The notes under the pieces: generated by a model
What the model was told of the DNA's origin: nothing
The model's input: the letters and a program-made list of their open reading frames with translations, nothing else
The model's database searches: none
Origin: Arachis hypogaea
Lineage: Eukaryota > Streptophyta > Magnoliopsida > Fabales > Fabaceae
Assembly: GCF_003086295.3 (NCBI RefSeq)
Contig: NC_092045.1
Span: 88,674,693 to 88,738,692 of the forward strand
Length of the DNA: 64,000 nt
Reading direction: 5' to 3'
Program-made: the position numbers and the translations under genes
Shown here: positions 3,113 through 62,294 of the stretch, piece by piece
How positions within the stretch are numbered: the first letter of the stretch is position 1
Layout of the letters: each line of letters begins with the position of its first letter

Positions 3113-3150
3113 CAACACCAAACTTAAATTGTTGCTTGTCCTCAAGCAAC
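3113..3150 (-). promoter_or_regulatory. Element A 3' polypurine-tract box with AGGA stem-loop
   Basis: Reading the minus strand towards the LTR: GTTGCTTG-AGGA-CAAGCAAC (3150-3131, perfect 8-bp arms), then TTTAAGTTTGGTGTTG abutting the LTR start at 3112. The purine-rich box directly before a 3' LTR is the plus-strand priming site by position. The stem-loop is a recurrent feature of this window. Confidence 0.75.
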
Positions 3151-4021
3151 TGAAAATCAAATAAGATAAAAAGAAGAGAATATGCAATGAATCCCAAAAA
3201 CATCTGTGAAGATCAGTATTAATTAGATGAGCGGGGCTTTTAGCTTTTTGCCTCTGAATAGTTTTGGCATCTCACTCTATCCTTTGAAATTCAGAATGAT
3301 TGGTTTCTTTAGGAACTCAGAATCCAGATAGTGTATTGATTCTCCTAGTAGAGTATGATGATTCTTGAACATAGCTACTTATTGAGTCTTGGCTGTGGCC
3401 CAAAGCACTCTGTCTTCCAGTATTACCACCGGATACATACATGCCACAGACACATAATTGGGTGAACCTTTTCAGATTGTGACTCAGCTTTTCTAAAGTC
3501 CCCAATTAGAGGTGTCCAGGGTTCTTAAGCACACTCTTATTTGCCTTGGATCACAACTCTTATTTCTCTATGTTTTTTCGTTTTCTTTTTCTTTTTCTCT
3601 TTTTTTTTTCGATTTTTTTTTTGAATAGAAATGCTTTTTCTTGCTTCAAGAATCATTTTGATGATTTTTCAGATCCTCAGTAACATGTCTCCTTTTTCAT
3701 CATTCTTTCAAGAGCCAACATTCATGAACCACAAATTCAAAAGACATATGCACTGTTTAAGCATACATTCAGAGAACAAAAGCATTGCCACCACATCAAA
3801 ATAATTAAACTGTTATAAAATTCAAAATTCATGCAATTCTTTCTTTTATCAATTAAGCACATTTTTATTTAAGAAAGGTGATGGATTCATAGGACATTCA
3901 TAACTTTAAGGCATAGACACTAAGACACTAATGATCACAAGACACAAACATGGATAAACATAAGCATAAAATTCGAAAAACAGAAGAACAAAGAACAAGG
4001 AAATCAAAGAACGGGTCCACC
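3151..4021 (-). other. Element A 3' non-coding region
   Basis: Lies between the env-like ORF and the 3' PPT. It holds a pyrimidine run on the + strand (about 3575-3625, mostly T) and otherwise AT-rich unique-looking sequence shared with C (18577-19450), E (52932-53980) and D (63470-64000, inverted). No ORF of note. Confidence 0.6.
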
Positions 4022-5163
4022 TTAGTGATGGCGGCTCTTTCTTCCTCTTGAAGATCCTATGGAGTGCTTGAGCTCCTCAATGTCTCTTCCTTGTCTTTGT
4101 TGCTCCTCCCTCATGATTCTTTGATTTTCTCTAATCTCATGAAGGATGATGGAGTGTTCTTGATGCCCCACCCTTAGTTGTCCCATGTTGGAGCTCAACT
4201 CTCCTAGGGAGGTGTTTAATTGCTCCCAGTAGTTTTGTGGAGGAAAGTGCATCCATTGAGGAATCTCAGGGATCTCATGATGAGTGGGATCTCTTGATGA
4301 GTGGGATCTCTTGTGTGCTCCATCCTTTTCTTAGTGATGGGTTTGTCCTCCTCAATGGGGGTGTCTCCCTCTATGTCAACTCCAACTGAATAACAGAGGT
4401 GACAAATAAGATGAGGAAAGGCTAACCTTGCCAAGGTAGAGGACCTGTCCGCCACCTTATAGAGTTCTTGGGCTATAACCTCATGAACCTCTATTTCTTC
4501 TCCAATCATGATGCTATGGATCATGATAGCCCGGTCTATGGTAACTTCGGACTGGTTGCTAGTGGGAATGATTGAGCGTTGTATAAACTCTAACCATCCT
4601 CTAGCCACGGGCTTGAGGTCATGCCTTCTTAATTGAACCGGCTTTCCTCTTGAATCTCTCTTCCATTGGGCGCCCTTTTCACATATGACTGTGAGGACTT
4701 GGTCCAACCTTTGATCAAAGTTGACCCTTCTAGTGTAAGGATGTTCATCTCCTTGCATCATAGGCAAATTGAATGCCAACCTTACACTTTCCGGACTAAA
4801 ATCCAAGTATTTCCCCCGAACTATAGTAAGATAATTCTTTGGATTCGGGTTCACACTTTGGTCATGGTTCTTGGTGATCCATGCATTGGCATAGAACTCT
4901 TGAACCATCAAGATTCCGACTTGTTGAATGGGGTTGGTAAGGACTTCCCAACCTCTTCTTCGGATCTCACGTCGGATCTCCGGATATTCACCCTTTTTGA
5001 GTGAAAAAGGGACCTCGGGGATCACCTTCTTCAAGGCCACAACTTCATAGAAATGGTCTTGATGCACCCTTGAGATGAATCTCTCCATCTCCCATGACTC
5101 GGAGGTGGAAGCTTTTGCCTTCCCTTTCCTCTTTCTAGAGGTTTCTCCGGCCTTGGATGCCAT
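4022..5163 (-). pseudogene. Element A env-like/plant transposon protein (frameshifted)
   Basis: Starts at the ATG at 5163 (MASKAGETSRKRKGK, basic N-terminus). Landmarks: RRRGWEVLTNP about residues 70-80, VQEFYANAWIT about 88-98, IVRGKYLDFSPESVRLAF about 113-130, and a Glu/Gln-rich coiled-coil tail (HEIRENQRIMREEQQRQGRDIEELK). Same family as the ORFs of E and D and the fragments of H. A 17-bp tandem duplication (4279-4295 repeated at 4296-4312) shifts the frame, so 315 codons are followed by the true tail in another frame (to 4022). The rest of the ORF is open. Preceded by an AGGA stem-loop/PPT-like box 36 bp upstream. Function unknown; the env label is positional only, and I see no signal peptide or membrane span. 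Confidence 0.8.
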
Positions 5164-5198
5164 AAATGGTTATGGAAAAACAAAAAGCAATGCTTTTA

Positions 5199-5237
5199 CC
5201 ACACCAAACTTAAAATGTTTGCTCGTCCTCGAGCAAA
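5199..5237 (-). promoter_or_regulatory. Element A internal PPT-like box with AGGA stem-loop
   Basis: Minus strand: TTTGCTCG-AGGA-CGAGCAAA (5237-5218) then TTTAAGTTTGGTGTGG. The box nearly repeats the one at 3113-3150, but the stem has a compensated C/G pair in place of T/A. It lies just before the env-like ATG. Confidence 0.65.
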
Positions 5238-6032: not shown

Positions 6033-8372
6033 TCACAGATTCTCAGAGCCATGTTGGAACCTCCCAACACCAAACTTAGAGTTTGAATGTGGGGGTTCAA
6101 CACCAAACTTAGAGTTTGGTTGTGGCCTCCCAACACCAAACTTAGAGTTTGACTGTGGGGGCTCTGTTTGGCTCTGTTTTGAGAGATGCTCTTCATGCTT
6201 CCTCTCCATGATGACAGAGGGATATCCTTGGGCCTTAAACACCAAGGACTCCTCATTCACTTGAATGATCAACTCTCCTCTATCAACATCAATTACAGCC
6301 TTTGCTGAGGCTAGGAAGGGTCTGCCAAGGATGATGGATTCATCCATGCACTTCCCAGTCTCTAGGACTATGAAATCAGTAGGGATGTAATGGTCTTCAA
6401 CTTTGACCAGAACATCCTCCACAAGTCCATAGGCTTGTTTTCTTGAGTTGTCTGCCATCTCTAATGAGATTTTTGCAGCTTGCACCTCAAAGATCCCTAA
6501 TTTCTCCATTACAGAGAGGGGCATGAGGTTTACACTTGACCCTAAGTCACACAAGGCCTTCTTGAAGGTCATGGTGCCTATGGTACAAGGTATTGAAAAC
6601 TTTCCAGGGTCCTGTCTCTTTTGAGGCAGTTTCTGCCTAGATAAGTCATCCAGTTCTTTGGTGAGCAAAGGGGGTTCATCCTCCCAAGTCTCATTTCCAA
6701 ATAACTTGTCATTTAGCTTCATGATTGCTCCAAGGTATTTAGCAACTTGCTCTTCAGTGACATACTCATCCTCTTCAGAGGAAGAATACTCATCAGAGCT
6801 CATGAATGGCAGAAGTAAGTCCAATGGAATCTCTATGGTCTCATTTTGAGCCGCAGATTCCCATGGTTCCTCATTGGGGAACTCATTGGAGGCTAGTGGA
6901 TGCCCAGTGAGGTCTTCCTCAGTGGCGTTCACTGCCTCTTCTTCATCCCAGAATTCGGCCATGTTGATGGCCTTGCACTCTCCTTTTGGATTTTCTTCTG
7001 TATTGCTTGGGAGAGTACTTGGAGGGAGTTCAGTAATTTTCTTGCTCAGCTGACCCACTTGTCCGTCCAAATTTCTGATGGAGGACCTTGTTTCAGTCAT
7101 GAAACTTTGAGTGGTTTTGATTAGATCAGAGACCATTGTTGCTAAGTCAGAGGTATTCTGCTTAAAGCTCTCTGTCTGTTGCTGAGAAGATGATGGAAAA
7201 GGCTTGCCATTGCTAAACCTGTTTCTTCCACCATTATTATTGTTGAAACCTTGTTGAGGTCTCTGTTGATTTTTCCATGAAAGATTTGGATGATTCCTCA
7301 ATGAAGGATTGTAGGTGTTTCCATAGGGTTCTCCCATGTAATTCACCTCTTCCATTGAAGGGTTCTCAGGATCATAAGCTTCTTCCTCAGATGAAGCTTC
7401 CTTAGTACTGCTTGGTGCATTTTGCATTCCAGACAGACTTTGAGAAATCATATTGATTTGTTGAGTCAATATTTTGTTCTGAGCCAATATGGCATTCAGA
7501 GTGTCAATCTCAAGAACTCCTTTCTTCTGACTAGTCCCATTGTTCACAGGATTTCTTTCAGAAGTGTACATGAATTGGTTATTTGCAACCATTTCAATCA
7601 GTTCTTGAGCCTCAGTAGGCGTCTTCTTCAGATGAAGAGATCCTCCAGAAGAGCTATCCAAAGACATCTTAGACAGTTCAGAGAGACCATCATAGAAAAT
7701 ACCTATGATGCTCCATTCAGAAAGCATGTCAGAGGGACACTTTCTGATTAATTGTTTGTATCTTTGCCAAGCTTCATAGAGGGATTCTCCTTCCTTCTGT
7801 CTGAAGGTTTGGACTTCCACTCTAAGCTTACTCAATTTTTGAGGTGGAAAGAACTTTGCCAAGAAGGCATTGACTAGCTTTTCTCAAGAGTCCAGGCTTT
7901 CTTTAGGTTGAGAGTCCAACCATGTTCTAGCTCTGTCTCTTACAGCAAAAGGGAATAGCATTAGTCTGTAGACCTCAGGGTCAACCCCATTAGTCTTGAC
8001 AGTGTCACAGATTTGCAAGAATTCAGCTAAAAACTGATGAGGATCTTCCAATGGAAGTCCATGGAACTTGCAATTCTGTTGCATTAGAGAAACTAATTGA
8101 GGCTTAAGCTCAAAGTTGTTTGCTCCAATGGCAGGGATAGAGATGCTTCTCCCATAGAAGTCGGGAGTAGGTGCAGTAAAGTCACCCAGCACCTTCCTTG
8201 CATTGTTGGCATTGTTGTTATTTTCGGCTGCCATGTGTTCTTCTTCTTTGAAGAATTCGGTTAGGTGCTCTAAAGAGAGTTGTGCTTTGGCTTCTCTGAG
8301 CTTTCTCTTCAAGGTCCTTTCAGGTTCAGGATCAGCCTCAACAAGAATGCCTTTGTCTTTGCTCCTGCTCAT
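6033..8372 (-). pseudogene. Element A gag-protease polyprotein (one nonsense codon)
   Basis: One frame of about 780 codons from the ATG at 8372 (MSRSKDKGILVEADPEPERT) with a single in-frame TGA at 7886-7884, where E has CGG (Arg). Gag domain (retrotrans_gag type): ELKPQLVSLMQQNCKF, then FAVRDRARTWLDSQP, FPPQKLSKLRVEVQTF and a helix with SGGSLHLKKTPTEAQELIE. The C-terminal part holds a retroviral-type aspartic protease: catalytic ALCDLGSSVNLMP near residue 440 after the stop and a later ILGRPFLA strand. It ends with three copies of NSKFGV, encoded by a PPT-like motif, then stops without RT. The missing pol is an architectural feature shared with E. Start chosen by match to the E ORF. Confidence 0.88.
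6066..6155 (-). repeat. Triple PPT-like motif at the protease C-terminus (A)
   Basis: Three copies on the minus strand of AACTCTAAGTTTGGTGTT, read in frame as NSKFGV, separated by linkers of 3-8 codons. The + strand copies contain the small dyad CAAACT-TAG-AGTTTG. E has the same triplet at 56168-56255. Confidence 0.75.
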
Positions 8373-9205: not shown

Positions 9206-9989
9206 TTTTTCTGTGCAATTCCTCTGCTGTATGTTCTGAATCTTCAATTCTCTGTATTATTGACTTGAGAAGACACAAATTAAAAATATTTTTAGATTTT
9301 TAATAATAAGGAAAAATCAAAATGCAACAAGAATCAAATAACAATGCATGCAAGACACCAAACTTAGCAGTTTGTATACTACTGACACTAACAGGATGAA
9401 AATGCATATGAGACACACAAAACACTCAAGTCAATAGAATTCAAAGATTAGAGCAAGTAAATCGTCAAGAACATCTTGAAGATCACCAAGATACATGAAT
9501 GAATGCATGCAATTGACACCAAACTTAAGATGAGACACTAGACTCAAACAAGAAATATTTTTGGATTTTATGATTTTTTTAATTTTTTTTTTTGTGTTTT
9601 TCGAAAATTAAGTGGAAAAAGATATCAAAATTCTTAATGAGAATTCCAGGAATCAGTGCAATGCTAGTCTAAGACTCCGGTCCAGGAATTAGACATGGCT
9701 TCACAGCCAGCCAAGCTTTCAAAGAAAGCTTCGGTCCAAAACAATAGACATGGCCAAAGGCCAGCCAAGCCTTAGCAGATCACTGCTCCAAAAGCAAGAT
9801 TGATAGAAATCAACAAGCTCTTGTGATGATAAGTTGAAACCTCGGTCCAATGAGATTAGACATGGCTTCTCAGCCAGCCAGACTTCAACAAATCATCATG
9901 AAACTCTAGAATTCATCTTCAAGAATTTCGAAGAAAAAAAAATATCTAATCTAAGCAACAAGATGAACCGTCAGTTGTCCAAACTAGAA
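9206..9989 (-). other. Element A leader with CGGTCCA tandem repeats
   Basis: It holds two ACACCAAACTTA (PPT-like) motifs near 9356 and 9516. Three diverged repeats start near 9676, 9731 and 9840, each with CGGTCCA..., TAGACATGGC and CAGCCAGCC/GGCCAGCC. No ORF is supported. Confidence 0.55.
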
Positions 9990-13459: not shown

Positions 13460-13496
13460 ACCTCCCCACACTTAAACCAAGCATGTCCTCATGCTT
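13460..13496 (-). promoter_or_regulatory. Element B1 3' PPT box with AGGA stem-loop
   Basis: Minus strand: AAGCATG-AGGA-CATGCTT (13496-13479), then GGTTTAAGTGTGGGGAGGT abutting LTR1. A purine-rich tract next to the LTR is the expected PPT. Confidence 0.8.
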
Positions 13497-14339: not shown

Positions 14340-15650
14340 CCTTTTATTCACCCAATGTCCCAAGGTTCCCACACTTGAATGATACTCACACACACTAGCC
14401 TAAGCCAATCAAAGATCCAAATTAAGGACATTTATTGTTTTTCACTTTAAGGCTTGTAATGTGCTAAAATAAGAATAAGTGGGTTAAGTGTAGGCTCAAA
14501 GTTGGCTAACAAAGGAAGATAAAAGGTAAGGCTATTTGGATAAGTGAGCTAATGAAATGATGGCCTCAATCATATAAATGCATGAATACACAAAATGATG
14601 GACATAAAGAATCAAACAAATCAAAGATTACATTCATAGAAAGAGAATAATGCACACAATAATGGAAAATAGGTGGTTATAAGATGTAACCACACAATTA
14701 GGCTCAAAACTCACATGCGTGTGTTCTTAGCTCAAGAACCATGTTCTAAAATACATTCTTTCAAGCAAGTTCAACAAATTTTCTTTTTTTCAAATTGGTA
14801 GGGTGCCCTAAAACAGTTTCTTGGAAAGGAAATCATCACCCTAACCAAGTAGTCCTAAAAAAAAGAGTGGTAAAAATATGTACAAATTCTAACTAACATG
14901 CAACCTATCATGCAATGCAACGACTAACTAACATTGGTGTTGAAAAAGAAAATTGTTACCCATGGAGATCGGTCAGACGACCTCCCCACACGTGAAGATT
15001 GCACCGTCCTCGGTGCATGCAAAGAAGAGCAAGGTGGACGGGTTGCTACAATTGATGAGCTCCTCAAATGGTTGTGCGGATGACTTGTTTGTTGCCCCAT
15101 TTAAAGGTATTTGTTTCTCCCTTCTTGGTGGCCAACCTAAAAGGGGAGGAAAGAAGAACGACAATGAGGCCTACAACAAAGATATCAGAACAAATATAAC
15201 GTAGGCCTGGGCTAATGCCAAATAAGAGTAAGGTTCTCAGTACATGTTAGCTACGCATGTAGGTGAGAAAACAATATAAGCAAATGGCATATTAACTAAT
15301 ACTTGATGCAAGAGTAAAGTGAGAGCATGAAGAGCATATGGCACATCAAGTTCACATAAGAAGAAGTGGGTCATGAAAGACAATATGAGGTCATATCAAT
15401 GCACAAAGAACACAAGTGCATAAAAGATTGAGCATTGATTTGAAGAGGAACATCACCCAACAATATGAAACAAGTCAAGAAGCACCAAAGTAATGCAATG
15501 AATTCTCAACAATTGAGTAGGAAGATGCAACACCATTAGTAAAATGAGTTAGAAAAAACGAAAACATGCTACAAAAAATAAATGAAAATGGGAAGAGTAG
15601 AAGTATGCGAATGTGATAAGCAAAAGAAAATGGAAGAGGGGGAAAAAACT
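14340..15650 (-). repeat. Element B1 patch nearly identical to B2 31800-33125
   Basis: About 1.3 kb that by eye differs from 31800-33125 at only a few sites, although both neighbours have diverged. It contains an AGGA stem-loop with a GTGTGGGGAGGT box (14980-15017). Open frames on both strands (83 codons + at 14953-15204; 63 codons - at 14973-15164) are identical in the two copies, but the DNA is identical too, so coding is not supported. Confidence 0.65.
14980..15017 (-). promoter_or_regulatory. Element B1 internal PPT-like box with AGGA stem-loop
   Basis: Minus strand: TGCACCG-AGGA-CGGTGCA (15017-15000), then CACGTGTGGGGAGGTC. The stem sequence is unlike the other copies but is perfectly paired; the loop is unchanged. 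Confidence 0.65.
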
Positions 15651-17012: not shown

Positions 17013-18538
17013 TGGTGCACGAATTTGCAATCCGCACAACTAACCAGCAAGTGCACTGGGTCGTCCAAGTAATACCTTACGTGAGTAAGGGTCGAATCCC
17101 ACGGAGATTGTTGGTTTGAAGCAAGCTATGTTTATCTTATTATTCTTAGTTAGGATACTAACAACAGTGTTTTTCAAGTTCAGTGAAGAAAGGAAAAAGG
17201 GCATAAAATAAATACTTGTTATGCAGTAATGGAGAATGTGTTGGAGTTTTGGAGATGCTTTGTCTGATTTATTCCTGTAATGTAATATTCCATCCATGGA
17301 AAAGTGCAAAGTTCCTCCATGGCAAGCTGTATGTAGGGTGTCACCGTTGTCAATGGCTACTTCCCATCCTCTCAGTGAAAACGTTCCTATGCTCTGTCAC
17401 AGCACGACTAATCATCTGTCGGTTCTCAATCCGGTTGGAATAGAATCCATTGATTCTTTTGCGTCTGTCACTAACGCCCAGCCTTCAGGAGTTTGAAGCT
17501 CGTCACAGTCATTCAATCCCAGAATCCTACTCGGAATACCACGGACAAGGTTTAGACTTTCCGGATTCTCATGAATGCCGCCATCAATCTAGCTTATACC
17601 ACGAAGATTCTGATTAAAGAATCTAAGAGAAGCTCATTCAATCTGATGTAGAACGGAGGTGGTTGTCAGGCACACGTTCATGGATTGAGGAAGGTGATGA
17701 GTGTCACGGATCATCACCTTCTTCATAATTAAGCGCGAATGAACATCTTGGATAGGAACACACACGTTTGAATGGAGAAATAGAAACAATTGCATTAATT
17801 CATCGAGACGCTGCAGAGCTCCTCACCCCCAACAATGGAGTTTAGAGACTTATGCCATCAAAGTGTATAAAATTCAGATCTGAAAATGTCATGAGGTACA
17901 AGAATAATCTCTAAAAGTAGTTTAAATAGTAAACTAGTAACCTAGGTTTACAGAATATGAGTAAACTAAGATAATTGGTGCAGAAATCCACTTCTGGGGC
18001 CCACTTGGTGTGTGCTGGGGCTGAGATTAAAGCTATCCACGAGTTGAGGCCTTTCTTGGCGTTAAACTCCAGGTTATGACGTGTTTTGGGCGTTCAACTC
18101 CGGATTATGACGTTTTTCTGGCGTTTAACTCCAGACAGCAGCATGAACTTGGCGTTCAACGCCAAGTTACGTCGTCTATCCTCGCGCAAAGTATGGACTA
18201 TTATATATTGCTGGAAAGCCCTGGATGTCTACTTTCCAACGCCGTTGAGAGCGCGTCAATTGGACTCCTGTAGCTCCAAAAAATCCATCTCGAGTGCAGG
18301 GAGGTCAGGATCCAACAGCATCAGCAGTCCTTTTTCAGCCTAACTCAGATTTTTGCTCAGCTCCCTCAGTTTCAGCCAGAAAATACCTGAAATCACAGAA
18401 AAACACACAAACTCATAGTAAAGTCCAGAAATATGATTTTTGCCTAAAAACTAATAATATTCTACTAAAAATTAATTAAAACATACTAAAATCTACATGA
18501 AATTACCCCCAAAAAGCGTATAAAATATCCGCTCATCA
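17013..18538 (-). repeat. Element C 3' LTR
   Basis: 1526 bp, minus-strand TGATGAGCGGATATTTTATAC...CGTGCACCA. The U3 dyad array at 18055-18170 includes an 11-bp-arm palindrome at 18146-18168. Confidence 0.93.
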
Positions 18539-18576
18539 CAACACCAAACTTAAACTGTTGCTTGTCCTCAAGCAAC
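18539..18576 (-). promoter_or_regulatory. Element C 3' PPT box with AGGA stem-loop
   Basis: Minus strand: GTTGCTTG-AGGA-CAAGCAAC (18576-18557), then TTTAAGTTTGGTGTTG abutting the LTR. Confidence 0.75.
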
Positions 18577-30933: not shown

Positions 30934-30970
30934 ACCTCCCCACACTTAAACCAAGCATGTCCTCATGCTT
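30934..30970 (-). promoter_or_regulatory. Element B2 3' PPT box with AGGA stem-loop
   Basis: Minus strand: AAGCATG-AGGA-CATGCTT (30970-30953), then GGTTTAAGTGTGGGGAGGT abutting LTR2. Confidence 0.8.
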
Positions 30971-33125
30971 AAGCCAAGAGAGAAACAAAGGGTATCAACA
31001 TTTATTCAATGTGAATAAACTATATGCATCTATCTATATGAATGCAACTAAATGCAAAATGATTCTACTTACTTGGTTAAAAATAAATCAATCCTCCAGG
31101 AGCATGTATGCACAAGTAGGGCCAAGATCATATAATGATTCATGAATCCTACCAATTCAAGTATAAAAATTGAAGTTCAAATGGACTTGCGAGAAGAACG
31201 CTCATGAAAGCCGGGAATCAAGGAATTGAGCATCGAACCCTCACCGGAAGTGTTTGCACTCTAGTCGCTCGGTGTTTGGGGTTGATTCTCTCAATTCTCT
31301 CCTAATCATGCTTTCCAAGATTTGTTTTTCATCTAACAATCAACAATTATTTCATGCATGCATACAATTATCATGAGGTCTTTTCTTTAGGTTGTAATGG
31401 GGCTAGGGTTAAGGTAGGATCATATTTAGTCAAGTGAGCTTGAAATTTGAATCTTTGATAAGCTTAAACCTCCCACCTAACCTATGACATCCTATACAAT
31501 TTCAAAGCTAACCTAACTACCCATTTCTCACTTTTTCACATACTCATGCAATTTCTTTTCATTTCACAACACTTATGCATTGATCTTTATTGAGCTTCAC
31601 TTTGTTTTGGGGCATTTTGTCCCCTTTTTATTTCTTTCTTTTTCTATATTTTTTTTCTTTTCCTTTTCCATATTATTTTTTTTCTTTTCTTTTTCTTTTG
31701 TTTTTCTCATTTTTTTTCTTTCTATATACAAAAACATCAATGCATAAGGTTTTACATTTGATCAATATATGAGTATGTACCCAATTTCCAATATTTTCAA
31801 TAAAAATACAAAACTACCCTTTTATTCACCCAATGTCCCAAGATTCCCACACTTGAATGATACTCACACACACTAGCCTAAGCCAATCAAAGATCCAAAT
31901 TAAGGACATTTATTGTTTTTCACTTTAAGGCTTGTAATGTGCTAAAATAAGAATAAGTGGGTTAAGTGTAGGCTCAAAGTTGGCTAACAAAGGAAGATAA
32001 AAGGTAAGACTATTTGGATAAGTGAGCTAATGAAATGATGGCCTCAATCATATAAATGCATGAATACACAAAATAATGGACATAAAGAATCAAACAAATC
32101 AAAGATTACAATCATAGAAAGAGAATAATGCACACAATAATGGAAAATAGGTGGTTATAAGATGTAACCACACAATTAGGCTCAAAACTCACATGCGTGT
32201 GTTCTTAGCTCAAGAACCATGTTCCAAAATACATTCTTTCAAGCAAGTTCAACAAATTTTCTTTTTTTTTCAAATTGGTAGGGTGCCCTAAAACAGTTTC
32301 TTGGAAAGGAAATCATCACCCTAACCAAGTAGTCCTAAAAAAAGGAGTGGTAAAAATATGTACAAATTCTAACTAACATGCAACCTATCATGCAATGCAA
32401 CGACTAACTAACATTGGTGTTGAAAAAGAAAATTGTTACCCATGGAGATCGGTCAGACGACCTCCCCACACGTGAAGATTGCACCGTCCTCGGTGCATGC
32501 AAAGAAGAGCAAGGTGGACGGGTTGCTACAATTGATGAGCTCCTCAAATGGTTGTGCGGATGACTTGTTTGTTGCCCCATTTAAAGGTATTTGTTTCTCC
32601 CTTCTTGGTGGCCAACCTAAAAGGGGAGGAAAGAAGAACGACAATGAGGCCTACAACAAAGATATCAGAACAAATATAACGTAGGCCTGGGCTAATGCCA
32701 AATAAGAGTAAGGTTCTCAGTACATGTTAGCTACGCATGTAGGTGAGAAAACAATATAAGCAAATGGCATATTAACTAATACTTGATGCAAGAGTAAAGT
32801 GAGAGCATGAAGAGCATATGGCACATCAAGTTCACATAAGAAGAAGTGGGTCATGAAAGACAATATGAGGTCATATCAATGCACAAAGAACACAAGTGCA
32901 TAAAAGATTGAGCATTGATTTGAAGAGGAACATCACCCAACAATATGAAACAAGTCAAGAAGCACCAAAGTAATGCAATGAATTCTCAACAATTGAGTAG
33001 GAAGATACAACACCATTAGTAAAATGAGTTAAAAAAAACGAAAACATGCTACAAAAACTAAATGAAAATGGGAAGAGTAGAAGTATGCGAATGTGATAAG
33101 CAAAAGAAAATGGAAGAGGGGGAAA
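30971..33125 (-). other. Element B2 3' non-coding region
   Basis: First part (to about 31800) diverged from B1, with a T-rich run at 31620-31720. The rest (31800-33125) is the near-identical patch. An internal AGGA stem-loop, TGCACCG-AGGA-CGGTGCA, is at 32497-32480 with CACGTGTGGGGAGGTC after it. No supported ORF. Confidence 0.6.
32460..32497 (-). promoter_or_regulatory. Element B2 internal PPT-like box with AGGA stem-loop
   Basis: Same sequence as the B1 copy at 14980-15017. Confidence 0.65.
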
Positions 33126-37832: not shown

Positions 37833-39637
37833 CTACAGACTGCAGATCTGGAAATTCCTCTACGGACAGAGCCCCCGCTTCAGCAGACCACTCATTCGAT
37901 CCTCACAGCGACTGCAGACCCTCAGCCTACCATCGAGACACCAGCAGCCCATCCTTCCGGAGATGACACTCCTTCACACCCAGCTTGAGTGAGCATCGAG
38001 GACGATGCTATTATTTAAGTGTGGGGAGGTTGCCATCTCTGGCATATATTTATTTTGGTGAACCACTACAAACTCTCTTCTTATTTTGTTCATTTTCTAT
38101 ATTTTTTCATATTTTTCTCTTTTTTGCCTTTTATTGTACTTTTTGCATTATGCACTTTGAGCTATATGTATACTATCTTGGATATTTTAGCTTGAGTTGT
38201 ACATTAGTTTACTAGTTATATTTTAAGTGGATTAATTAGTATAGTTTACCCTTTTTAGCATATGATAGTTGATTTGATTGAAAATAAAAAGGAAGTAAGC
38301 TAGAAACTTTAACAGAATAAAAACAATCCACACCTTGTATATATAGCATTACATGTTTGTTAGTTAACAATATTTCATCAAGGAGGAACACTGAAAGTTT
38401 AAAGCCATCCAATATATATTTTACATTGAGAATAATGGGAACTCTTGATTTCTACCTGCATGACATATATAAGTGATATATGATTTTTGAGTTAGAGAAC
38501 ACACAGCCTGTGAGTTTTGAGCTTAATTGTATGGTTACATTTAAACCATAATATTTTATTCCTGTGTGTTTCGCCCTTCTTATTTATTCTGGTGTTCTTT
38601 ACTTTGTTTTAATCTGTATGTCCGATTATAGAATATAGATACATACCAAGAAAGTGATTGAGGCCATTGTTTGATTCTAGCTCACCACTCCCAAATTAGC
38701 CTACCTTTTACATCACCATTGTTAGCCCCCTTGAGCCTTTTAATCCGCTTCTTCCTTATAACCACATTACTAGCCTTAAGCAGAAAAACAAAATAAAAAT
38801 TCCAAGTTGAATCCTTGGTTAGCTTAAGATAGATTTGTGTAAAATTTAAGTGTAGGGAACTTTATGGGAACATGGGATGATAGAAAAGTAGGAAATTAAA
38901 TTAAACAAGTTATGTGAAAATAATTTGGGAAGCATGCTCATGTGAAGTCAAAATAAATTAATTACCATGTGTAGAAAAAAAAAAGCGATGCACATGGAAT
39001 ACAAATAAATAGAAAAAAATCAGAATATGAGCATGTAATATAAAAATGGGAGAAATATGGGAAAATAGGTGAAGAAGCTTTGCTTTACAAAATATATATG
39101 TTAGGTGAGATCTTAGACTAATCAAGAATTCACTTAATTAGCTCACTTAGCCTTATACATATATCCTTACCTTTACCTTGGCCCCATTACAACCTTAATC
39201 AAAGACCTCATGATTTTTGTATGCCTATATTCTATAATTGTTGATTGGATAGATGAAGAACAAAGTTATGGAAAACAAGAATAAAAAGAAGAATAGAGTG
39301 ATTAACCCAATAAACACTAAGTGACTAGAGAGTAAACACAAAATCCAGTAAGAGTTCAATAGCTCATCACCATATATCTCTACTTCTATTATTAATTGTC
39401 TTGCAAGTTTGAAAAATATTTTATTTGCCCATCTCAATTGTAAAAGTGCCTTAACATTATCTAAGGTTGGCTATGCATATATGATTCCTTGAGAATGTGA
39501 ATTAATTTAACTACATGTAAAGTTTTATATATAAGTGGATAATAACTAGATTTGCATGACTCATTTAGGTAGATGCATTTAGAATAGATTGCATTGCATG
39601 AGATTCCACCACTTTACCTTACTCTTTATCTTGGATT
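37833..39637 (+). other. Element H 3' non-coding region
   Basis: AT-rich with no supported ORF. An AGGA stem-loop with a PPT-like box lies at 37992-38032. The rest contains T-rich and A-rich tracts. Confidence 0.55.
37992..38032 (+). promoter_or_regulatory. Element H internal PPT-like box with AGGA stem-loop
   Basis: AGCATCG-AGGA-CGATGCT (37992-38009), then TTTAAGTGTGGGGAGGTTG. It follows the end of the ORF. Confidence 0.7.
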
Positions 39638-39675
39638 TAGCATGAGGACATGCTATTGTTTAAGTGTGGGGAGGT
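39638..39675 (+). promoter_or_regulatory. Element H 3' PPT box with AGGA stem-loop
   Basis: TAGCATG-AGGA-CATGCTA (39638-39655), then GTTTAAGTGTGGGGAGGT immediately before the LTR start at 39676. Confidence 0.82.
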
Positions 39676-42093: not shown

Positions 42094-42470
42094 ATTTTGA
42101 ATCGGGATGACGGGACAGTGGACGCAGTGCCTCTCCAGACTCGCCCTCCTTCACCATGTGTTGATGCTGTCGAGAAGCCCTCGGGTGCCTGATTTGACTT
42201 CTGTAACTATCTTGTGTAGATAGCCCGGTTTGTGGGCGTTTAAACTCTTTATCTTTGTAAATGGTGTTTTGCTGACTGTTGATAATTTTGGGTTGCTTGT
42301 TTAGCAACTTTTATTTTGCAAAAAACAAAGTAGTTTCCGAGCTTCCGGGGCTGATTTTGGTGGCCTCTGAAGCTTGCTATTTATCATAACTTAGTAGTTT
42401 TTATATCATATCTGCTTGCGCTCGTCTTGTTACCTTTGTAGGCTGGGACTTTGTTTGTAATCCTCCTTTT
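42094..42470 (-). other. Element T spacer
   Basis: Between the antisense ORF and the tandem repeats. Nothing recognised. Confidence 0.4.
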
Positions 42471-44518: not shown

Positions 44519-44730
44519 TTTAGCAATGGTATTGAAATCCCTCTTTTGTATAAAGTATTATTTATGATGGTATAGTATTGTACTTCCCGTTTTAACCTCT
44601 TTGCCTCTTTCTCATCTGTAGGGAGGGCTTCTGTTATGAGGTAATTAATTATGGGGGTTATCCATCCCTGATCGCGACCTGTTATGGCTAGGACTTTTTC
44701 TTCTTCTGAGATTGATGGATTCTGTAGAAT
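44519..44730 (-). pseudogene. Element T RNase H-integrase linker, decayed
   Basis: Reads as the linker (SISEEEKVLAITGRD, then INYLITEALPTDEKEAKRL) after a TAA at 44733-44731, then shifts frame before the integrase. Degenerate. Confidence 0.6.
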
Positions 44731-51098: not shown

Positions 51099-52893
51099 TG
51101 GTGGACGAAATTGCGATCCATGTTCTTTTGTACTTTGTATGAAATCATTATTATGGCACCAGTTGAATTCACAACTCCGTTCAACTAACCAGCAAGTGTA
51201 CTGGGTCGTCCAAGTAATAAACCTTACGCGAGTAAGGGTCGATCCCACAGAGATTGTTGGTATGAAGCAAGCTATGGTCACCTTGTAAATCTCAGTTAGG
51301 CAGATTGAATTGGTTTATGGGTTTTCGAAAATTAATAAATAAAAAGAAAATAAAAAGGGATAGAAATACTTATGTAAATCAATAGTGAGAATTTCAGATA
51401 AGTGTATGGAGATGCTGTGCTCCTCTTGAAACTCTACTTCACCACTCACTCTTCCTTCAATCCTTCTTACTCCTTTCCATGGCAAGCTGTATGTAGGGCT
51501 TCACCATCATCGGTGGCTACTTTCAATCCTCTCGGGAAAATGGTCCTATGCGCTGTCACTGCACGGCTAATCGTCTGGAGGCATCACCCTTGGTTGATGG
51601 CTACATCCCATCCTCTCAGTGAAAATGGTCCAAATGCTCTGTCACAGCACGGCTAATCATCTGTCGGTTCTCAATCAGGTTGGAATAAAATCTATTGATT
51701 CTTTTGCGTCTGTCACTAACGCCCAGCCTTCAGGAGTTTGAAGCTCGTCACAGTCATTCAATACCGGAATCCTACTCGGAATACCACAGACAAGGTGAGA
51801 CTTTCCGGATTCCCAGGATCCTACTCGGAATACCACAGACAAGGTTAGACTTTCCAGATCCTCATGAATGCCGCCATCTATCTAGCTTATACCACGAAGA
51901 TTCTGTTGGGGAATCTAAGAGATATGCGCCCGGCCTAAGGTAGAACGGAAGTGGTTGTCAATCACGTGCGTTCATAGGTGAGAATGATGATGAGTGTCAC
52001 GGATCATCATATTCATCAAGTTAAGTGTAACGTATATCTTGGAATAAGAAGAAAAGAGAATTGAATAAAAAGTAGTAGTGATTGTATTGAAACTTGAGGT
52101 ACAGCAGAGCTCCACACCCTTAATCTATGGTGTGCAGAAACTCCACTGTTGAAAATACATAAGTAAAAGGTTCAGGAATGGCCGAATGGCCAGCCCCCTT
52201 GAGTGATCAAGAGACCAAATAATCAAAGGCTAAACAGTCAAGAGATTAAACTGTCAAAAGATGTCTAATACAATAGTAACTTATCCTATTTATACTAGAC
52301 TAGCTACTAGGGTTTACATGAGTAAGTATTTGATGAATAAATCCACTTCCGGGGCCCACTTGGTGTATGCTTGGGCTGAGCTTTATCTATCCACGAGCTG
52401 AGGCTTTTCTTGGAGTTGAACTCCAAGTTATGACGTGTTTTGGGCGTTCAACTCCGGATCATGACGTTTTTCTGGCGTTTAACTCCAGACAGCAGCATGT
52501 ACTTGGCGTTCAACGCCAAGTTACGTCGTCAATTTCCGAATAAAGTATAGACTATTATATATTGCTGGAAAGCTCTGGATGTCTACTTTCCAACGCCGTT
52601 GAGAGCGCGCCATTTTGGGTTCTGTAGCTCCAGAAAATCCATTTTGAGTGTAGGGAGGTCAGATTCCAACAGCATCAGCAGTCCTTTTGTCAGCCTTTTT
52701 CAGAGTTTTGCTCAAGTCCCTCAATTTCAGCCAGAATTTACCTGAAATCACAAAAAAACACACAAACTCATAGTAAAGTCCAGAAATGTGAATTTAACAT
52801 AAAAACTAATGAAAACATCCCTAAAAGTAGCTTGAACTTACTAAAAACTACCTAAAAACAATGCCAAAAAGCGTATAAATTATCCGCTCATCA
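51099..52893 (-). repeat. Element E 3' LTR
   Basis: 1795 bp. Contains an 86-bp segment absent from the other LTR, bounded by GCACGGCTAATC at 51561-51572 and 51647-51658. U3 dyads at 52410-52525; TATA on the minus strand at 52294-52285. Confidence 0.92.
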
Positions 52894-52931
52894 CAACACC
52901 AAACTTAAATTGTTGCTTGTCCCCAAGCAAC
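52894..52931 (-). promoter_or_regulatory. Element E 3' PPT box with stem-loop (GGGA loop)
   Basis: Minus strand: GTTGCTTG-GGGA-CAAGCAAC (52931-52912), then TTTAAGTTTGGTGTTG abutting the LTR. The loop's first base differs; the stem is intact. Confidence 0.7.
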
Positions 52932-56144: not shown

Positions 56145-58466
56145 TCAGGTCAATGTTTGTGTAGTCCCAACACCAAACTTAGAGTTTGGATATGGGGTCT
56201 GAACACCAAACTTAGAGTTTGGTTGTGGCCTCACAACACCAAACTTAGAGTTTGACTGTGGGGGCTCTTCTTGACTCTGAACTGAGAGAAGCTCTTCATG
56301 CTTACTCTCTTTTGTCACAGAGGGATGGCCATGTGCCTTAAACACAAGGTAGTCCCCATTCAATTGAAGGACTAATTCACCTCTGTTGACATCCATCACA
56401 GCTCCTGCTGTGGCTAGGAAAGGTCTTCCAAGGATGATGCAATCATCCTCTTCCTTCCTAGTGTCTAAGATTATGAAATCAGCAGGGATGTAAAGGCCTT
56501 CAACCTTTACTAACACGTCCTCTACTATTCCATAAGCTTGTCTCAATGACTTGTCTGCCAATTGTAATGAGAACAAGGCAGGTTGTACCTCAATGATCCC
56601 CAGCTTCTCCATTACAGAGAGTGGTATAAGATTTATTCCTGACCCCAGATCACATAGAGCTTTTTCAAAGCTCATGGTGCCTATGGTACAAGGTATTAAG
56701 AACTTACCAGGATCTTGTTTCTTTTGAGGTAGAATTTGCTGAATCCAGGTATCCAGTTCACTAATGAGCAAGGGAGGTTCACTTTCCAAAGTCTCATCAC
56801 CAAACAACTTGGCATTCAGCTTCATGATAGCTCCTAAGTATTGAGCAATTTGCTCTCCAGTCACATCTTCATCCTCTTCAGAGGAAGAATAGTCTTCAGA
56901 GCTCATGAATGGCAGAAGGAGATTTAATGGAATCTCTATGGTCTCTATATGAGCCTCAGATTCCTTTGGATCCTTAATAGGAAACTCCTTCTTGCTTGAG
57001 GGACGTCCCAGGAGGTCTTCCTCACTAGGATTTTCGTCCTCCTCCTCCCTTGTGCATTCGGCCATATTGATCACATCAATGGCCTTGCACTCTCCTTTTG
57101 GATTTTCTTCTGTATTGCTTGGGAGAATACTGGGAGGAGTTTCAATAACTTTCTTACTCAGCTGGCCCACTTGTGCCTCCAAATTTCTGATGGAGGATCT
57201 TGTTTCATTCATGAAACTGAAAGTGGCCTTTGACAGATCAGAGACTATATTGGCTAAATTAGAAGTGTTTTGTTCAGAATTCTCTGTCTGTTGCTGAGAA
57301 GATGATGGATATGGCTTACTATTGCCTAGCCTAGTGCGTCCACCATTGTTAAAGCCTTGTTGAGGCTTTTGTTGATCCTTCCATGAGAAATTTGGATGAT
57401 TTCTCCATGATGAGTTATAGGTGTTTCCATAAGGTTCACCCATGTAATTAACCTCTGCCATGGCAGGGTTCTCAGGATCATAAGCTTCTTCAGAAGCTGC
57501 CTCTTTAGTACTGTTGGATGCATGTTGCCATCCATTCAGACTTTGAGAGATCATGTTGACCTACTGAGTCAACACTTTGTTCTGAGCCAATATGGCATTC
57601 AGAGCATCAATTTCAAGAACTCCTTTCTTCTGAGGTATCCCATTATTCACGGAATTCCTCTCAGAAGTGTACATGAATTGGTTGTTTGCAACCATATCAA
57701 TGAGTTCTTGAGCCTCTTCAGGCATTTTCTTTAGGTGAATAGATCCACCTACAGAATGGTCCAATGACATTTTCGAAAATTCAGATAGACCATAATAGAA
57801 TATATCTAATATGGTCCATTCTGAAAACATGTCAGATGAACATCTTTTGGTCAGCTGCTTGTATCTTTCCCAAGCTTCATAGAGGGATTCACCATCTTTT
57901 TGTTTGAAGGTTTGAACATCTACTCTCAGCTTACTCAGCTTTTGAGGAGGAAAGAATTTATCTAAGAAGGCAGTGACCAGCTTATCCCGGGAGTCCAGGC
58001 TATCCTTAGGTTGTGAATCCAACCATATTCTAGCTCTGTCTCTTACAGCAAAAGGGAAAAGCATGAGTCTGTAGACTTCAGGATCAACTCCATTTGTCTT
58101 TACAGTCTCACAGATCTGCAAGAAATCAGTTAAAAACTGATAAGGATCTTCAGACGGAAGTCCATAAAACTTACAGTTTTGTTGCATTAAGGCAACTAGC
58201 TGAGGTTTCAGCTCAAAGTTATTGGCTCCAATGGCAGGAATGGAGATGCTTCTTCCATCAAACTTGGACGTTGGCTTTGTGAAGTCACTAAGCATTCTCC
58301 TTGCATTATTATTATTTTTGGCTGCCATCTCCTTCTCTTGTTCAAAAATTTCTGAAAGGTTGTTTCTGGATTGTTGTAATTTAGCTTCTCTTAATTTTCT
58401 CTTCAGAGTCCTTTCAGGTTCTGGATCAATTTCAACAAGAGTGCCTTTTTCCCTGTTCCTGCTCAT
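56145..58466 (-). pseudogene. Element E gag-protease polyprotein (one nonsense codon)
   Basis: Starts at the ATG at 58466 (MSRNREKGTLVEIDPEPERT). 774 codons in one frame with a TAG at 57563-57561, where A has a Gln codon. Gag domain: ELKPQLVALMQQNCKF, FAVRDRARIWLDSQP, FPPQKLSKLRVDVQTF, HSVGGSIHLKKMPEEAQELID. Protease: catalytic ALCDLGSGINLIP and CIILGRPFLAT. Ends with three NSKFGV repeats and stops without RT, exactly as in A. Clear ortholog of the A ORF, which supports this as a stable architecture. Confidence 0.88.
56168..56255 (-). repeat. Triple PPT-like motif at the protease C-terminus (E)
   Basis: Three copies of AACTCTAAGTTTGGTGTT on the minus strand, in frame as NSKFGV. Confidence 0.75.
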
Positions 58467-59978
58467 ATGAAAGAGAAGAAAACAAGAAAAGAAAGAGGAA
58501 TCCTCTATGTCACAGTATAGAGATTCCTTTATGTTAGTAGAAGAAGAAAGGGGGAAGAAAGTAGAAGAGGGGATTCGGATATTAAGTGAAGAGGGATGAA
58601 GAGAAGTGTTAGTAATTAAATAATTAAATAGAATAAGAAAAGAGATAGAGAATTTTCGAAAACAATTTTGAAAAAGGGGTTAGTAATTTTCGAAAATTAG
58701 AGATAAGATAAGATTAAATTTAAAATTTAAAACAAAAGAATTTTTGAAAAAGAGATGAGATATTTTCGAAAACTAGAGAGGGAAAAGTAGTTAGATGGTT
58801 TTGAAAAAGATAAGAAATAAACAAAAAGTTAGTTAGTTGATTGAAAAAGATATTAAAATCAAATTTGAAAAAGATAAGAAGATAAGAAGTTAGATAAGAT
58901 ATTTTGAAATCAAATTTTGAAAAAGATAAAATTTTTGCAAAAGATAAGATAAAAGATAAAGAGATATATTTTGAAAAAGATTTAATTTTTAAATTTAAAA
59001 TTACTTACTTCACTAACAAGAAACTTCAAGATAAGATTCTAGAATTTAAAGATTGGACCTTTCTTAACAAGAAAGTGACAAACTTCAAATTTTTGAATCA
59101 ATCACATTAATTATTAGTGAATTTTCGAAAATTAGATGTAAAGATAAGAAAAAGATTTTGAAAAATATTTTGAAAAAGATTTTTGAAATTTTCGAAAAAT
59201 AGAAAAAAATGAAAAAGATATAATTTTTGAAAAAGATTTTGAAAAGATAAGATTTTTTTTTTAAATTGAAATTTTGACTTGACTTGTGAGAAACAGCTAA
59301 TTTTAAAAATTTTTGACCAAGTCAACCCAAAATTTCAAAAATTTGGAGGGAAATAAGGAAAAGATATTTTTTTGATTTTTGAATTTTTAATTATGAGAGA
59401 GAAAAACAACAAAAATACTCAATGCATGAAATTTTTAGATCAAAACAATGAATGCATGCAAGAATGCTATGAATGTCAAGATGAACACCAAGAACACTTT
59501 GAAGATCATGATGAACATCAAGAACATAATTTTGAAAAATTTTTGATGCAAAGAAAACATGTAAGACACCAAACTTAGAAATTTCTAATGCTTGAAAAAT
59601 ATGAATGCAAAGATGCACATGAAAAACAAGAAAAGACACAAAACAAGAAAACATCAAGATCAAACAAGAAGACTTTATCAAGAACAACTTGAAGATCATG
59701 AAGAACACTATGAATGCATGGAATTTTCGAAAAAATGCAAGAAAAATTTTAAGAGCATGCAATTGACACCAAACTTAAAATTAAAACAAAACTCAAACAA
59801 GAAACACAAAATATTTTTGATTTTTATGATTTTTTAATTTTTTTGTATTTCTATTTAATTTTTTCGAAAAACATGGTTAAAAAAACGAAAAAGAAAAGAA
59901 AAATTTTTAAAAATATTTTTGAAAAGAAAATTACCTAATCTGAGCAACAAGATGAACTGTCAGTTGTCCATACTCGAA
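58467..59978 (-). other. Element E leader
   Basis: A-rich GAAAAAGATAAGAT repeats (58620-59260), then a stretch with AGAACA/CAAGAACA repeats (59440-59720) and ACACCAAACTTA motifs near 59567 and 59766. No supported ORF. Confidence 0.6.
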
Positions 59979-59999: not shown

Positions 60000-60005
60000 A
60001 AAACT

Positions 60006-61713
60006 TGGTGGACGAAATTGTGATCCATGTTCTTTTGTACTTTGTATGAAATCATTATTATGGCACCAGTTGAATTCACAACTCCGTTCAACTAACCAGC
60101 AAGTGTACTGGGTCGTCCAAGTAATAAACCTTACGCGAGTAAGGGTCGATCCCACAGAGATTGTTGGTATGAAGCAAGCTATGGTCACCTTGTAAATCTC
60201 AGTTAGGCAGATTGAATTGGTTTATGGGTTTTCGAAAATTAATAAATAAAAAGAAAATAAAAAGGGATAGAAATACTTATGTAAATCAATAGTGAGAATT
60301 TCAGATAAGTGTATGGAGATGCTGTGCTCCTCTTGAAACTCTACTTCACTACTCACTCTTCCTTAATCCTTCTTACTCCTTTCTATGGCAAGCTGTATGT
60401 AGGGCTTCACCATCATCGGTGGCTACTTTCAATCCTCTCGGGAAAATGGTCCTATGCGCTGTCACTGCACGGCTAATCATCTGTCGGTTCTCAATCAGGT
60501 TGGAATAGAATCCATTGATTCTTTTGCGTCTGTCACTAACGCCCAGCCTTCAGGAGTTTGAAGCTCGTCACAGTCATTCAATACCGGAATCCTACTCGGA
60601 ATACCACAGACAAGGTGAGACTTTTCGGATTCCCAGGATCCTACTCGGAATACCACAGACAAGGTTAGACTTTCTAGATCCTCATGAATGCCGCCATCTA
60701 TCTAGCTTATACCACGAAGATTCTGTTGGGGAATCTAAGAGATATGCGCCCGGCCTAAGGTAGAACGGAAGTGGTTGTCAATCACGTGCGTTCATAGGTG
60801 AGAATGATGATGAGTGTCACGGATCATCATATTCATCAAGTTAAGTGTAACGTATATCTTGGAATAAGAAGAAAAGAGAATTGAATAAAAAGTAGTAGTG
60901 ATTGTATTGAAACTTGAGGTACAGCAGAGCTCCACACCCTTAATCTATGGTGTGCAGAAACTCCACTGTTGAAAATACATAAGTAAAAGGTTCAGGCATG
61001 GCCGAATGGTCAGCCCCCTTGAATGATCAAGAGACCAAATAATCAAAGGCTAAACAGTCAAGAGATTAAACTGTCAAAAGATGTCTAATACAATAGTAAC
61101 TTATCCTATTTATACTAGACTAACTACTAGGGTTTACATGAGTAAGTATTTGATGCATAAATCCACTTCCGGGGCCCACTTGGTGTATGCTTGGACTGAG
61201 CTTGATCTATCCACGAGCTGAGGCTTTTCTTGGAGTTGAACTCCAAGTTATGACGTGTTTTGGGCGTTCAACTCCGGATCATGACGTTTTTCTGGCGTTT
61301 AACTCCAGACAGCAGCATATACTTGGCGTTCAACGCCAAGTTACGTCGTCAATTTCCAAATAAAGTATGGACTATTATATATTGCTGGAAAGCTCTGGAT
61401 GTCTACTTTCCAACGCCGTTGAGAGCGCGCCATTTGGAGTTCTGTAGCTCCAGAAAATCCATTTCGAGTGCAGGGAGGTCAGATTCCAACAGCATCAGCA
61501 GTCCTTTTGTCAGCCTTTTTCAGAGTTTTGCTCAAGTCCCTCAGTTTCAGCCAGAATTTACCTGAAATCACAGAAAAACACACAAACTCATAGTAAAGTC
61601 CAGAAATGTGAATTTAACATAAAAACTAATGAAAACATCCTTAAAAGTAGCTTGAACTTACTAAAAACTACCTAAAAACAATGCCAAAAAGCGTATAAAT
61701 TATCCGCTCATCA
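60006..61713 (-). repeat. Element E 5' LTR
   Basis: 1708 bp; U3 dyads at 61230-61345, TATA on the minus strand at 61114-61105. Lacks the 86-bp segment of the left LTR. Confidence 0.92.
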
Positions 61714-61718
61714 GCGTT
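61714..61718. repeat. TSD of element E, right copy (GCGTT)
   Basis: Matches 51094-51098; the D dyad continues as GCGTTTAACACC. Confidence 0.92.
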
Positions 61719-61920
61719 TAACACCAGAATTGCAGCATCCTAGGCGTTCAGCAAAACGCCCAGTGATAATGGGGTTTTTGGTGTTTAACGCCAGCCAGGG
61801 TGCCTGGCTGGGCGTTAAACGCCCATAATGGCCACCAATTGGGCGTTAAACGCTAGAATGGATACCATTCTGGGCGTTAAACGTCAGAATGGATACCATT
61901 CTGGGCATTTAACGCCAGAA
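61714..61920. repeat. GCGTTNAACGC dyad array of element D, right part
   Basis: About six units. Spacers at 61791-61811, 61855-61871 and 61885-61903 are each inverted repeats with different sequences. Confidence 0.85.
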
Positions 61921-62256
61921 AGGCAGGGGAAGGAGATTTTGCTTTCCACTTCAATTTTTTTCACACTTTCATGTTTTGACCCATAATTTTCTACATAAAC
62001 ATGTTACAAATTTTCATTATTCACCCTCAAATTTCAAAAATCCAACAATTTTCTAAATTATTTCTCCAATCTCTTTCAAATCCTTTCCAAATCTTCTTCA
62101 AAAACTCAAGTATTTTCTCAAATTCTTTCCATATCTTCTCAAATCTCTTTCAAAACTTTCGAAATCCCTCTCCCTCCTTATAAATACACATTCGGCCATC
62201 CCCCTCTCTTCACCATTCGAATTTGCTTCTCCTCCTCTCTCTCCTCTTTCCTTTCT
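61921..62256 (+). other. Element D spacer
   Basis: T- and C-rich, with TTTCAAAAATCC-type low complexity. No gene. Ends in CTCTCCTC-rich sequence before the stem-loop. Confidence 0.45.
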
Positions 62257-62294
62257 TTTGCTTGAGGACAAGCAAACCTATAAGTTTGGTGTGC
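62257..62294 (+). promoter_or_regulatory. Element D internal PPT-like box with AGGA stem-loop
   Basis: TTTGCTTG-AGGA-CAAGCAAA (62257-62276), then CCTATAAGTTTGGTGTGC. It precedes the env-like ATG by about 37 bp. Confidence 0.7.

Follow-up and report, generated by a model that had tools for sequence, protein, structure and literature searches.

The stretch of peanut DNA analysed here (C10:88,674,693-88,738,692; 64 kb, hereafter the window) is a nest of long terminal repeat (LTR) retroelements, as established by self-comparison for LTR pairs. The elements are named E1 to E7, and their nesting order is inferred from LTR pairs and coordinates; E3 appears to be inserted within E4. Target-site duplications (TSDs) of 5 bp set the ends of E1 (CCCGT), E2 (AGCAA), E3 (AACGC) and the outer E6/E5 unit (GGTAC). 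This study concerns a small hairpin with a purine tetraloop that stands beside boxes of the polypurine tract (PPT) type in these elements. A first-pass annotation of the window had described 13 copies, and all 13 were present with the positions, stems and loops that it gave (Table 1): the loop is AGGA in 11 copies, GGGA in one (52931-52912) and AGGG in one (55208-55191), and the stem has 7-8 perfect Watson-Crick pairs in every copy. Although all are real, they do not count as separate pieces of evidence, as they comprise eight distinct 18-mers, several of which are common to related copies.

Table 1. Hairpin modules, LTRs and extra open reading frames (ORFs) of the elements in the window
Feature	Position	Strand	Remarks
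E1 3′ LTR	1388..3112	-	pairs with 5′ LTR 11838-10102, 98% identity
E1 3′ spacer and PPT-type box	3113..3130	-	abuts 3′ LTR (3112-1388); TSD CCCGT fixes LTR ends
E1 3′ hairpin GTTGCTTG-AGGA-CAAGCAAC	3131..3150	-	18 nt ahead of 3′ LTR start 3112
E1 extra ORF frame	4216..5169	-	PF20167, 1.5e-38
E1 internal hairpin TTTGCTCG-AGGA-CGAGCAAA	5218..5237	-	first ATG at +55
E5 3′ hairpin AAGCATG-AGGA-CATGCTT	13479..13496	-	19 nt ahead of LTR start 13459
E5 internal hairpin TGCACCG-AGGA-CGGTGCA	15000..15017	-	
E2 3′ LTR	17013..18538	-	pairs with 5′ LTR from 28069, 99.4%
E2 3′ hairpin GTTGCTTG-AGGA-CAAGCAAC	18557..18576	-	18 nt ahead of LTR start 18538; TSD AGCAA
E2 internal hairpin TTTGCTTG-AGGA-CAAGCAAA	19814..19833	-	
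E6 3′ hairpin AAGCATG-AGGA-CATGCTT	30953..30970	-	19 nt ahead of LTR start 30933
E6 internal hairpin TGCACCG-AGGA-CGGTGCA	32480..32497	-	
E7		+	3′ part of element; 3′ LTR from 39676
E7 internal hairpin AGCATCG-AGGA-CGATGCT	37992..38009	+	
E7 3′ hairpin TAGCATG-AGGA-CATGCTA	39638..39655	+	20 nt ahead of LTR start 39676
E4		+	5′ LTR from about 46193; element resumes past 61714; no 3′ LTR seen in the window
E3 3′ LTR	51099..52893	-	pairs with 5′ LTR from 61713; 97.7% and 99.0% over two aligned pieces
E3 3′ hairpin GTTGCTTG-GGGA-CAAGCAAC	52912..52931	-	18 nt ahead of LTR start 52893; TSD AACGC
E3 internal hairpin TTGCTCG-AGGG-CGAGCAA	55191..55208	-	first ATG at +56
E4 extra ORF frame	62184..63461	+	PF20167, 1.8e-39; 90% to P0001, 79% to an Arachis hypogaea protein
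E4 internal hairpin TTTGCTTG-AGGA-CAAGCAAA	62257..62276	+	first ATG at +55

The hairpins follow a two-module anatomy, terminal and internal, that was not in the first-pass annotation. In all six elements with both places visible (E1, E2, E3, E5, E6 and E7), one hairpin with its box lies 18, 18, 18, 19, 19 and 20 nt, respectively, ahead of the 3′ LTR and a second one lies another 1.2-2.3 kb upstream; together with the internal module of E4, this accounts for all 13 hairpins. As a correction to the annotation, only six of the 13 adjoin a 3′ LTR, the other seven being internal. The 3′ modules stand where a PPT stands, directly 5′ of the 3′ LTR, the LTR ends being fixed by TSDs in E1, E2, E3 and the outer LTRs of E5/E6. 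A module is present at all six 3′ LTRs identified in the window and at none of five stretches upstream of outer 5′ LTRs. The two hairpins of E5, like those of E7, differ from each other in 12 of 14 stem letters, yet have the loop and most of the box in common; two stem letters differ in E1 and none in E2. A 200-kb block of another contig contains six more close module pairs (L190, L197, L198, L202, L204 and L200, the internal hairpin of L200 having a T.G).

The hairpin accompanies only some of the boxes. The exact box set was defined as TAAGTTTGGTGT, TAAGTGTGGGGAGG and the variant CACGTGTGGGGAGG, added since the internal boxes of E5 and E6 carry it; TAAGTTTGGTGT alone has 21 exact sites in the window (20 on the minus strand, one on the plus strand; mean in shuffled sequence, 0.01). 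Of the 28 exact box sites in the window, 13 have a hairpin, its edge 4-6 nt from the box, and 15 do not: these lie in 5′ leaders, in ORF repeats and, in one case, elsewhere. Two of the 15 have a different 8-bp palindrome 23 nt away, which is the product of a 33-bp repeat. The hairpin-free TAAGTTTGGTGT boxes of the 5′ leaders and 33-bp ORF repeats are found at 6078-6144, 9366-9527, 25871-26372, 56181-56247 and 59577-59777 (minus strand); TAAGTTTGGTGT boxes are always on the sense strand of the element and recall the multiple PPT copies of Sireviruses. In the 200-kb block, all 15 perfect hairpins with an AGGA, GGGA or AGGG loop adjoin a box, loosely defined in this case, and among 54 box sites the number of pairs is seven of seven at 15, six at one and five at three (two of them repeat sites), with no hairpin at 35. 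Box/LTR junctions of the TTGTGATG type in this block had all seven pairs in 7 of 7 cases, and those of the TTGATAAACC type in one of two.

A tolerant scan of the whole window ([AG]GG[AG] loops, at most one mismatch in seven pairs) returned these 13 hairpins as the only perfect stems; a box follows all of them and follows no one-mismatch stem. In 100 dinucleotide-shuffled windows, perfect hairpins with AGGA, GGGA or AGGG loops numbered 0.15 on average and two at most. At gathering score, the Rfam 15 models gave no match in the window. All 91 cells formed by pairs 1-7 (numbered outward from the loop) are Watson-Crick, and none is G-T. The loop-closing G-C is constant and the six other positions vary, on both sides each time (pair 2, TA or CG; pair 3, TA, AT or CG; pair 4, CG or AT; pair 5, GC or CG; pair 6, TA, AT or GC; pair 7, TA or AT). 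The covariation score of the eight distinct 18-mers is 0.908 versus 0.239 in shuffled sets, none of 500 shuffles reaching 0.908, and slid controls scored at most 0.235; on weaker measures, pairs with changes on both sides were matched by 15 of 500 shuffles and further pair types by 57 of 500. Two other forms were seen outside the window. A stem type absent from it, TGCACGG-AGGA-CCGTGCA, stands ahead of TTTAAGTGTGGGGGAGG at L193:3113-3130, and a 3′ copy near position 4616 of L200 (minus strand) has a GAGA loop on an intact stem. GGGA and GAGA are loops of the GNRA type, which the predominant AGGA is not.

Genome-wide scans covered the 2,557,474,382-base genome to which the window belongs, counts of repeats being lower bounds. 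The core GAGGAC with a box occurs 38,385 times for TAAGTTTGGTG (reversed-pattern control, 1) and 30,503 times for TAAGTGTGGGGAGG (control, 0). All seven pairs were found at 29 of 30 loci cut at the TAAGTTTGGTG pattern and at 17 of 20 additional places with this pattern, the exceptions being L176 (a chance match in the 33-bp repeat), L183 (decayed) and L175 (T.G); these 50 places were the first listed on C1 and not a random draw. A selection that used only the loop core and the box, and took no account of pairing, gave 70 non-identical sites, 64 of them perfect (12/12 from the window, 38/42 from the pattern and 14/16 from the 200-kb block); the internal sites of E5 and E6, identical over 100 nt, were counted once. 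The covariation score over 15 distinct 18-mers, a set that retained imperfect and spurious sequences, was 0.754 versus 0.167 (0 of 500 shuffles), and 92.4% of cells pair. The first-pass annotation had named independent drift of the arms in a bigger alignment as the result that would speak against a structure; in the part of that comparison carried out here, the stem was preserved as just described, the arms had drifted in individual decayed copies, and one large family had its outermost pair unpaired. With pairs 1, 2, 4 and 5 held fixed (box TAAGTTTGG for T-A, TAAGTNTGG for A-T and A.A), pair 3 was T-A at 21,143 places, A-T at 23,046 and A.A at 140, which is strong evidence that pair 3 covaries genome-wide, judged on these three of the four cells. 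Pair 2 was T-A at 21,143 places and C-G at 12,525, and its mismatches within the 70 sites were T.G twice and C.A once; the genome-wide off-diagonal counts cover A.A at pairs 3 and 7 only. Outside this genome, a stem of at least 5 bp followed by a box was present in none of 123 viral-contig loci among the matches listed, 10 bacterial genome-contig loci had stems of 1-3 bp only, and protein scans of the viral contigs confirmed no relative.

The arms are also more constant than their surroundings. In 27 3′ copies anchored on the box/LTR junction by a script blind to the hairpin, most of them fetched via the pattern with GAGGAC, the mean pairwise difference was 0.000 in both 7-nt arms, 0.118 in the loop, 0.113 in the spacer and 0.309 and 0.310 in the flanks. 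Within the window, all seven pairs of like modules show zero stem differences, with flank identities (gaps excluded) of 76-88% in six pairs and 99-100% in the E5/E6 internal pair. Since both members of a pair change in step and the loop is retained, the hairpin is, on this sequence evidence, kept by selection. The claim of a selected structure made in the first-pass annotation is upheld by the paired changes between families with a steady loop, by the invariant arms amid diverged flanks and by the pair-3 counts. In folds of 101-nt stretches, the hairpin is part of the minimum free energy structure at 10 of 13 sites, those at 19833, 62257 and 30970 favouring other folds, and for 7 of 13 hairpins the mean pair probability exceeds 0.9 across three sense-RNA contexts; for the internal hairpins of E5 and E6 it falls to 0.78-0.79 with 150-nt flanks. 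A lower stem, formed by an upstream pyrimidine-rich tract with the box, was frequent in the folds; this idea was dropped because it was better than shuffled tracts (p<0.05) at just 2 of 13 sites.

The host elements look like Athila-type Ty3/gypsy elements of Arachis. By the definition in PMC6317226, Athila has a Ty3 pol that is not of the chromovirus type and that lacks the additional archaeal RNase H seen in Tat. A Pfam scan took in 20 of the 25 window ORFs, none of them surely from E7. The pol ORF of E2 has RVT_1, RT_RNaseH, H2C2 and rve and no RVT_3 or RNase_H match at E 0.001, which agrees with Athila on the RNase H side of this definition; RVT_3 is present in a separate Tat-like ORF (44731-45867). 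Domains of pol were found in E2 and E4; E1 and E3 gave a gag match and no pol domain, and the ORFs scanned from E5/E6 gave zero matches. TGGCGCCGTTGCCGGGGA stands shortly past the 5′ LTR in E1, E2, E3 and E6 and is a candidate primer-binding site (PBS) of the tRNA-Asp type. Another Athila trait, an additional ORF in the interval from pol to the 3′ LTR, is present as PF20167 downstream of the internal module in E1, E3 and E4, one of the two E3 pieces being below the curated cut-off; E2 has no ORF of at least 150 aa in this interval. The Athila ORF-1 domain PF03078 had no match in the ORFs scanned, which does not exclude Athila membership because the domain is reported in just 16% of Athila elements in the relevant part of PMC6317226. 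Among six protein relatives, two have Arachis hypogaea as source name.

What is observed is where the module lies, that it is duplicated, that its inner pairs change jointly, that its loop is near-fixed and that other box copies lack it. For its function we make a proposal with an about even chance of being right: a cis element of reverse transcription that would help to define the plus-strand primer at the terminal and the internal PPT. A stem of 6-8 bp with a purine tetraloop (AGGA, GGGA or AGGG), ending 4-6 nt before the box TAAGT, would mark or delimit the primer; the internal copy, at a PPT-like box downstream of the gag or gag-pol ORFs and ahead of the 3′ LTR, would provide a second, central-type plus-strand start. 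Reverse transcriptase (RT) copying the RNA from the LTR side would pass the box first and then meet the hairpin, and a pause there might keep its RNase H on the 3′ portion of the box/LTR junction, such that this box, and not the others, would be cut and used as primer. Of the two halves of the proposal, we are less sure of this pause model. The hairpin would act single-stranded, as RNA before copying or as minus-strand DNA once the RNA is removed; zero G-T in the window would suit pairing needed in both strands, but T.G copies occur elsewhere. A replication step in cis is suggested because the distance of the hairpin to the box and to the LTR is near-fixed, because only the LTR-side and internal boxes have the hairpin and because it is kept in elements with no pol domain found in the ORFs scanned: E1, E3, E5 and E6 retain both modules, as expected for a cis element used in trans. 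In HIV, the polymerase and RNase H sites are 18 bp apart, which the 18-20 nt spacing between hairpin and LTR would fit. The PPT role suggested by the first-pass annotation is consistent with these data yet unproven, being favoured by the place at the 3′ LTR and by the absence from the 15 other boxes. We are more doubtful about the most specific version, a duplicated hairpin-PPT cassette of Athila-type elements in which the upstream RNA hairpin would be the stop that places RNase H, a hairpin-free box would be ignored, and the hairpin would be the code for terminal and central plus-strand origins.

Several findings weigh against this proposal. Intact internal modules of the GGTAAAA type numbered just four of six in the 200-kb block, and the TTTAAGTTTGGTGTTG box does not form a run of purines. 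RNA folding predicts weak pairing for the internal hairpins of E2 and E4 (19833 and 62257; pair probability 0.00-0.62) and partial pairing for the 3′ hairpins of E6 (30970; about 0.4) and E5 (13496; to 0.00 with 150-nt flanks), most low values being lifted by DNA folding parameters. The polymerase and RNase H sites of the Ty3 RT are about 13 bp apart, according to the section of PMC5371799 dealing with them. The internal modules of E1, E3 and E4 may serve another job, because each has a TATA-like box upstream and an ATG 55-56 nt downstream. Finally, in the GCATG family, pair 7 is more often A.A (AAGCATG/CATGCTA, 3,735) than A-T (AAGCATG/CATGCTT, 2,950); pair counts cannot tell common ancestry from repeated change, but they do show that A.A is rare at pair 3 and not at pair 7. 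The outer pair is therefore free and the stem is one of 6 bp in this family, which rules out pair 7 as part of a conserved core there. The first-pass description of a covarying stem is accordingly retained for the inner pairs, which change together, and not for pair 7, which is not kept genome-wide.

The main rival, which we regard as unlikely though well ahead of the others, takes the hairpin for an RNA signal in Gag/nucleocapsid binding, packaging or RNA handling, its place beside the PPT being a coincidence. RNA hairpins bound by proteins commonly have this shape, a short stem of unconstrained sequence capped by a fixed purine loop, and two copies per element, kept where no pol domain was found, would suit such a signal; the 4-6 nt spacing to the box and the 18-20 nt spacing to the LTR are left unexplained. 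It is improbable that there is no structural selection at all, the palindromes having spread by copying or the arms having been corrected via hairpin template switching in reverse transcription. Stems are simply identical within families, as copying would give, and zero G-T among the 91 window cells would agree with correction. However, the arms are invariant amid flank divergence of 0.31, the modules of E5 and of E7 keep loop and most of the box despite their different stems, and 15 window boxes have no such hairpin. Against correction in particular, the decayed copies L157, L175, L183, L192 and L200 lose pairs uncompensated, and therefore no correction occurs after insertion; frequent A.A at pair 7 likewise indicates that the arms are not forced to perfection.

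Equally hard to credit is a hairpin that sits in the leader of a distinct mRNA, encoding the extra (env-like) ORF, and controls the start of that ORF, with the 3′ copies derived. The first ATG comes 55, 56 and 55 nt past the hairpin in E1, E3 and E4, with TATA[AT]A 125, 126 and 78 nt ahead of the hairpin (5362, minus; 55334, minus; about 62179, plus); E2 has its first ATG at +25 and, counted from the sequence, the aligned ATGGCAC start at +55. However, the internal hairpin is intact in E7, where no ATG ORF of at least 60 aa follows the module, and in E5, where none follows on the sense strand; the 3′ modules stand before an LTR and not an ORF; and the internal modules of E2, E5, E6 and E7 have no TATA[AT]A within 260 nt upstream, while one does precede two 3′ modules (E5 and E7). 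A TATA-led mRNA leader accounts for part of the internal modules only. A duplex palindromic site bound by a host factor or integrase would agree with a place adjoining the LTR end but is very improbable, as the arm letters vary widely with complementarity kept, whereas a DNA-binding site would hold its letters.

Other features of the window were as follows. E6 and E5 form a three-LTR unit (11908-37286, minus strand) with E2 inside it: the outer LTRs, from 37286 and 13459, are 97.5% alike, and the inner LTR (30933-29384), followed by its own PBS-like sequence, is more diverged than the outer pair. A TATA-like box and a pyrimidine-rich leader before the PF20167 ORF of E4, E1 and E3 are a possible internal promoter for this extra ORF. 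A 107-bp tandem repeat of 4.5 copies (42458-42940) adjoins a Tat-like pol (43481-45867) carrying RVT_3, an extra RNase H-type domain; the tolerant scan found no perfect hairpin of the AGGA type near them.

A search for PPT hairpins has been called for in the portion of PMC3601003 on this subject. We found no description in the literature of a duplicated upstream hairpin with a near-fixed purine loop, the search having excluded Wright and Voytas 2002, so an earlier mention is possible. In peanut, a compact covarying hairpin sets the LTR-side and internal boxes apart from similar boxes at other places in these elements, and primer choice becomes testable with short templates; if general, the module would be a marker by which to locate the 3′ ends of plant LTR elements and their internal PPTs. 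Among known systems, Athila4 and Calypso have an extra PPT in their linkers (PMC2829016, citing Wright and Voytas 2002) and share with the peanut elements a second PPT-like box downstream of pol and ahead of the 3′ LTR, but the lines of that paper on these linkers do not mention a hairpin. HIV-1 and Ty1 likewise have a second, internal plus-strand start beyond the 3′ PPT (PMC2829016, PMC5371799); the paragraphs of these papers on internal PPTs mention no upstream hairpin, and priming at the peanut boxes is putative. The closest likeness is to the inverted repeat of Sireviruses (Ty1/copia), as outlined in the Sirevirus part of PMC2829016: a plant LTR element with a structure exactly at its terminal PPT and with multiple PPT copies, only one of them structured, where the structured PPT neighbourhood has been proposed as an RNase H guide. 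The Sirevirus arms (about 28 bp) flank the PPT, which lies in the loop between the upstream arm and an arm located, on average, 28 bp into the LTR. In the peanut elements the entire stem-loop is upstream of the box, no separate search having been made for a long LTR-reaching repeat. In contrast to the Sirevirus arrangement, the peanut module is thus a compact 6-8 bp hairpin wholly upstream of its box, with a near-fixed purine loop and an internal copy as well.

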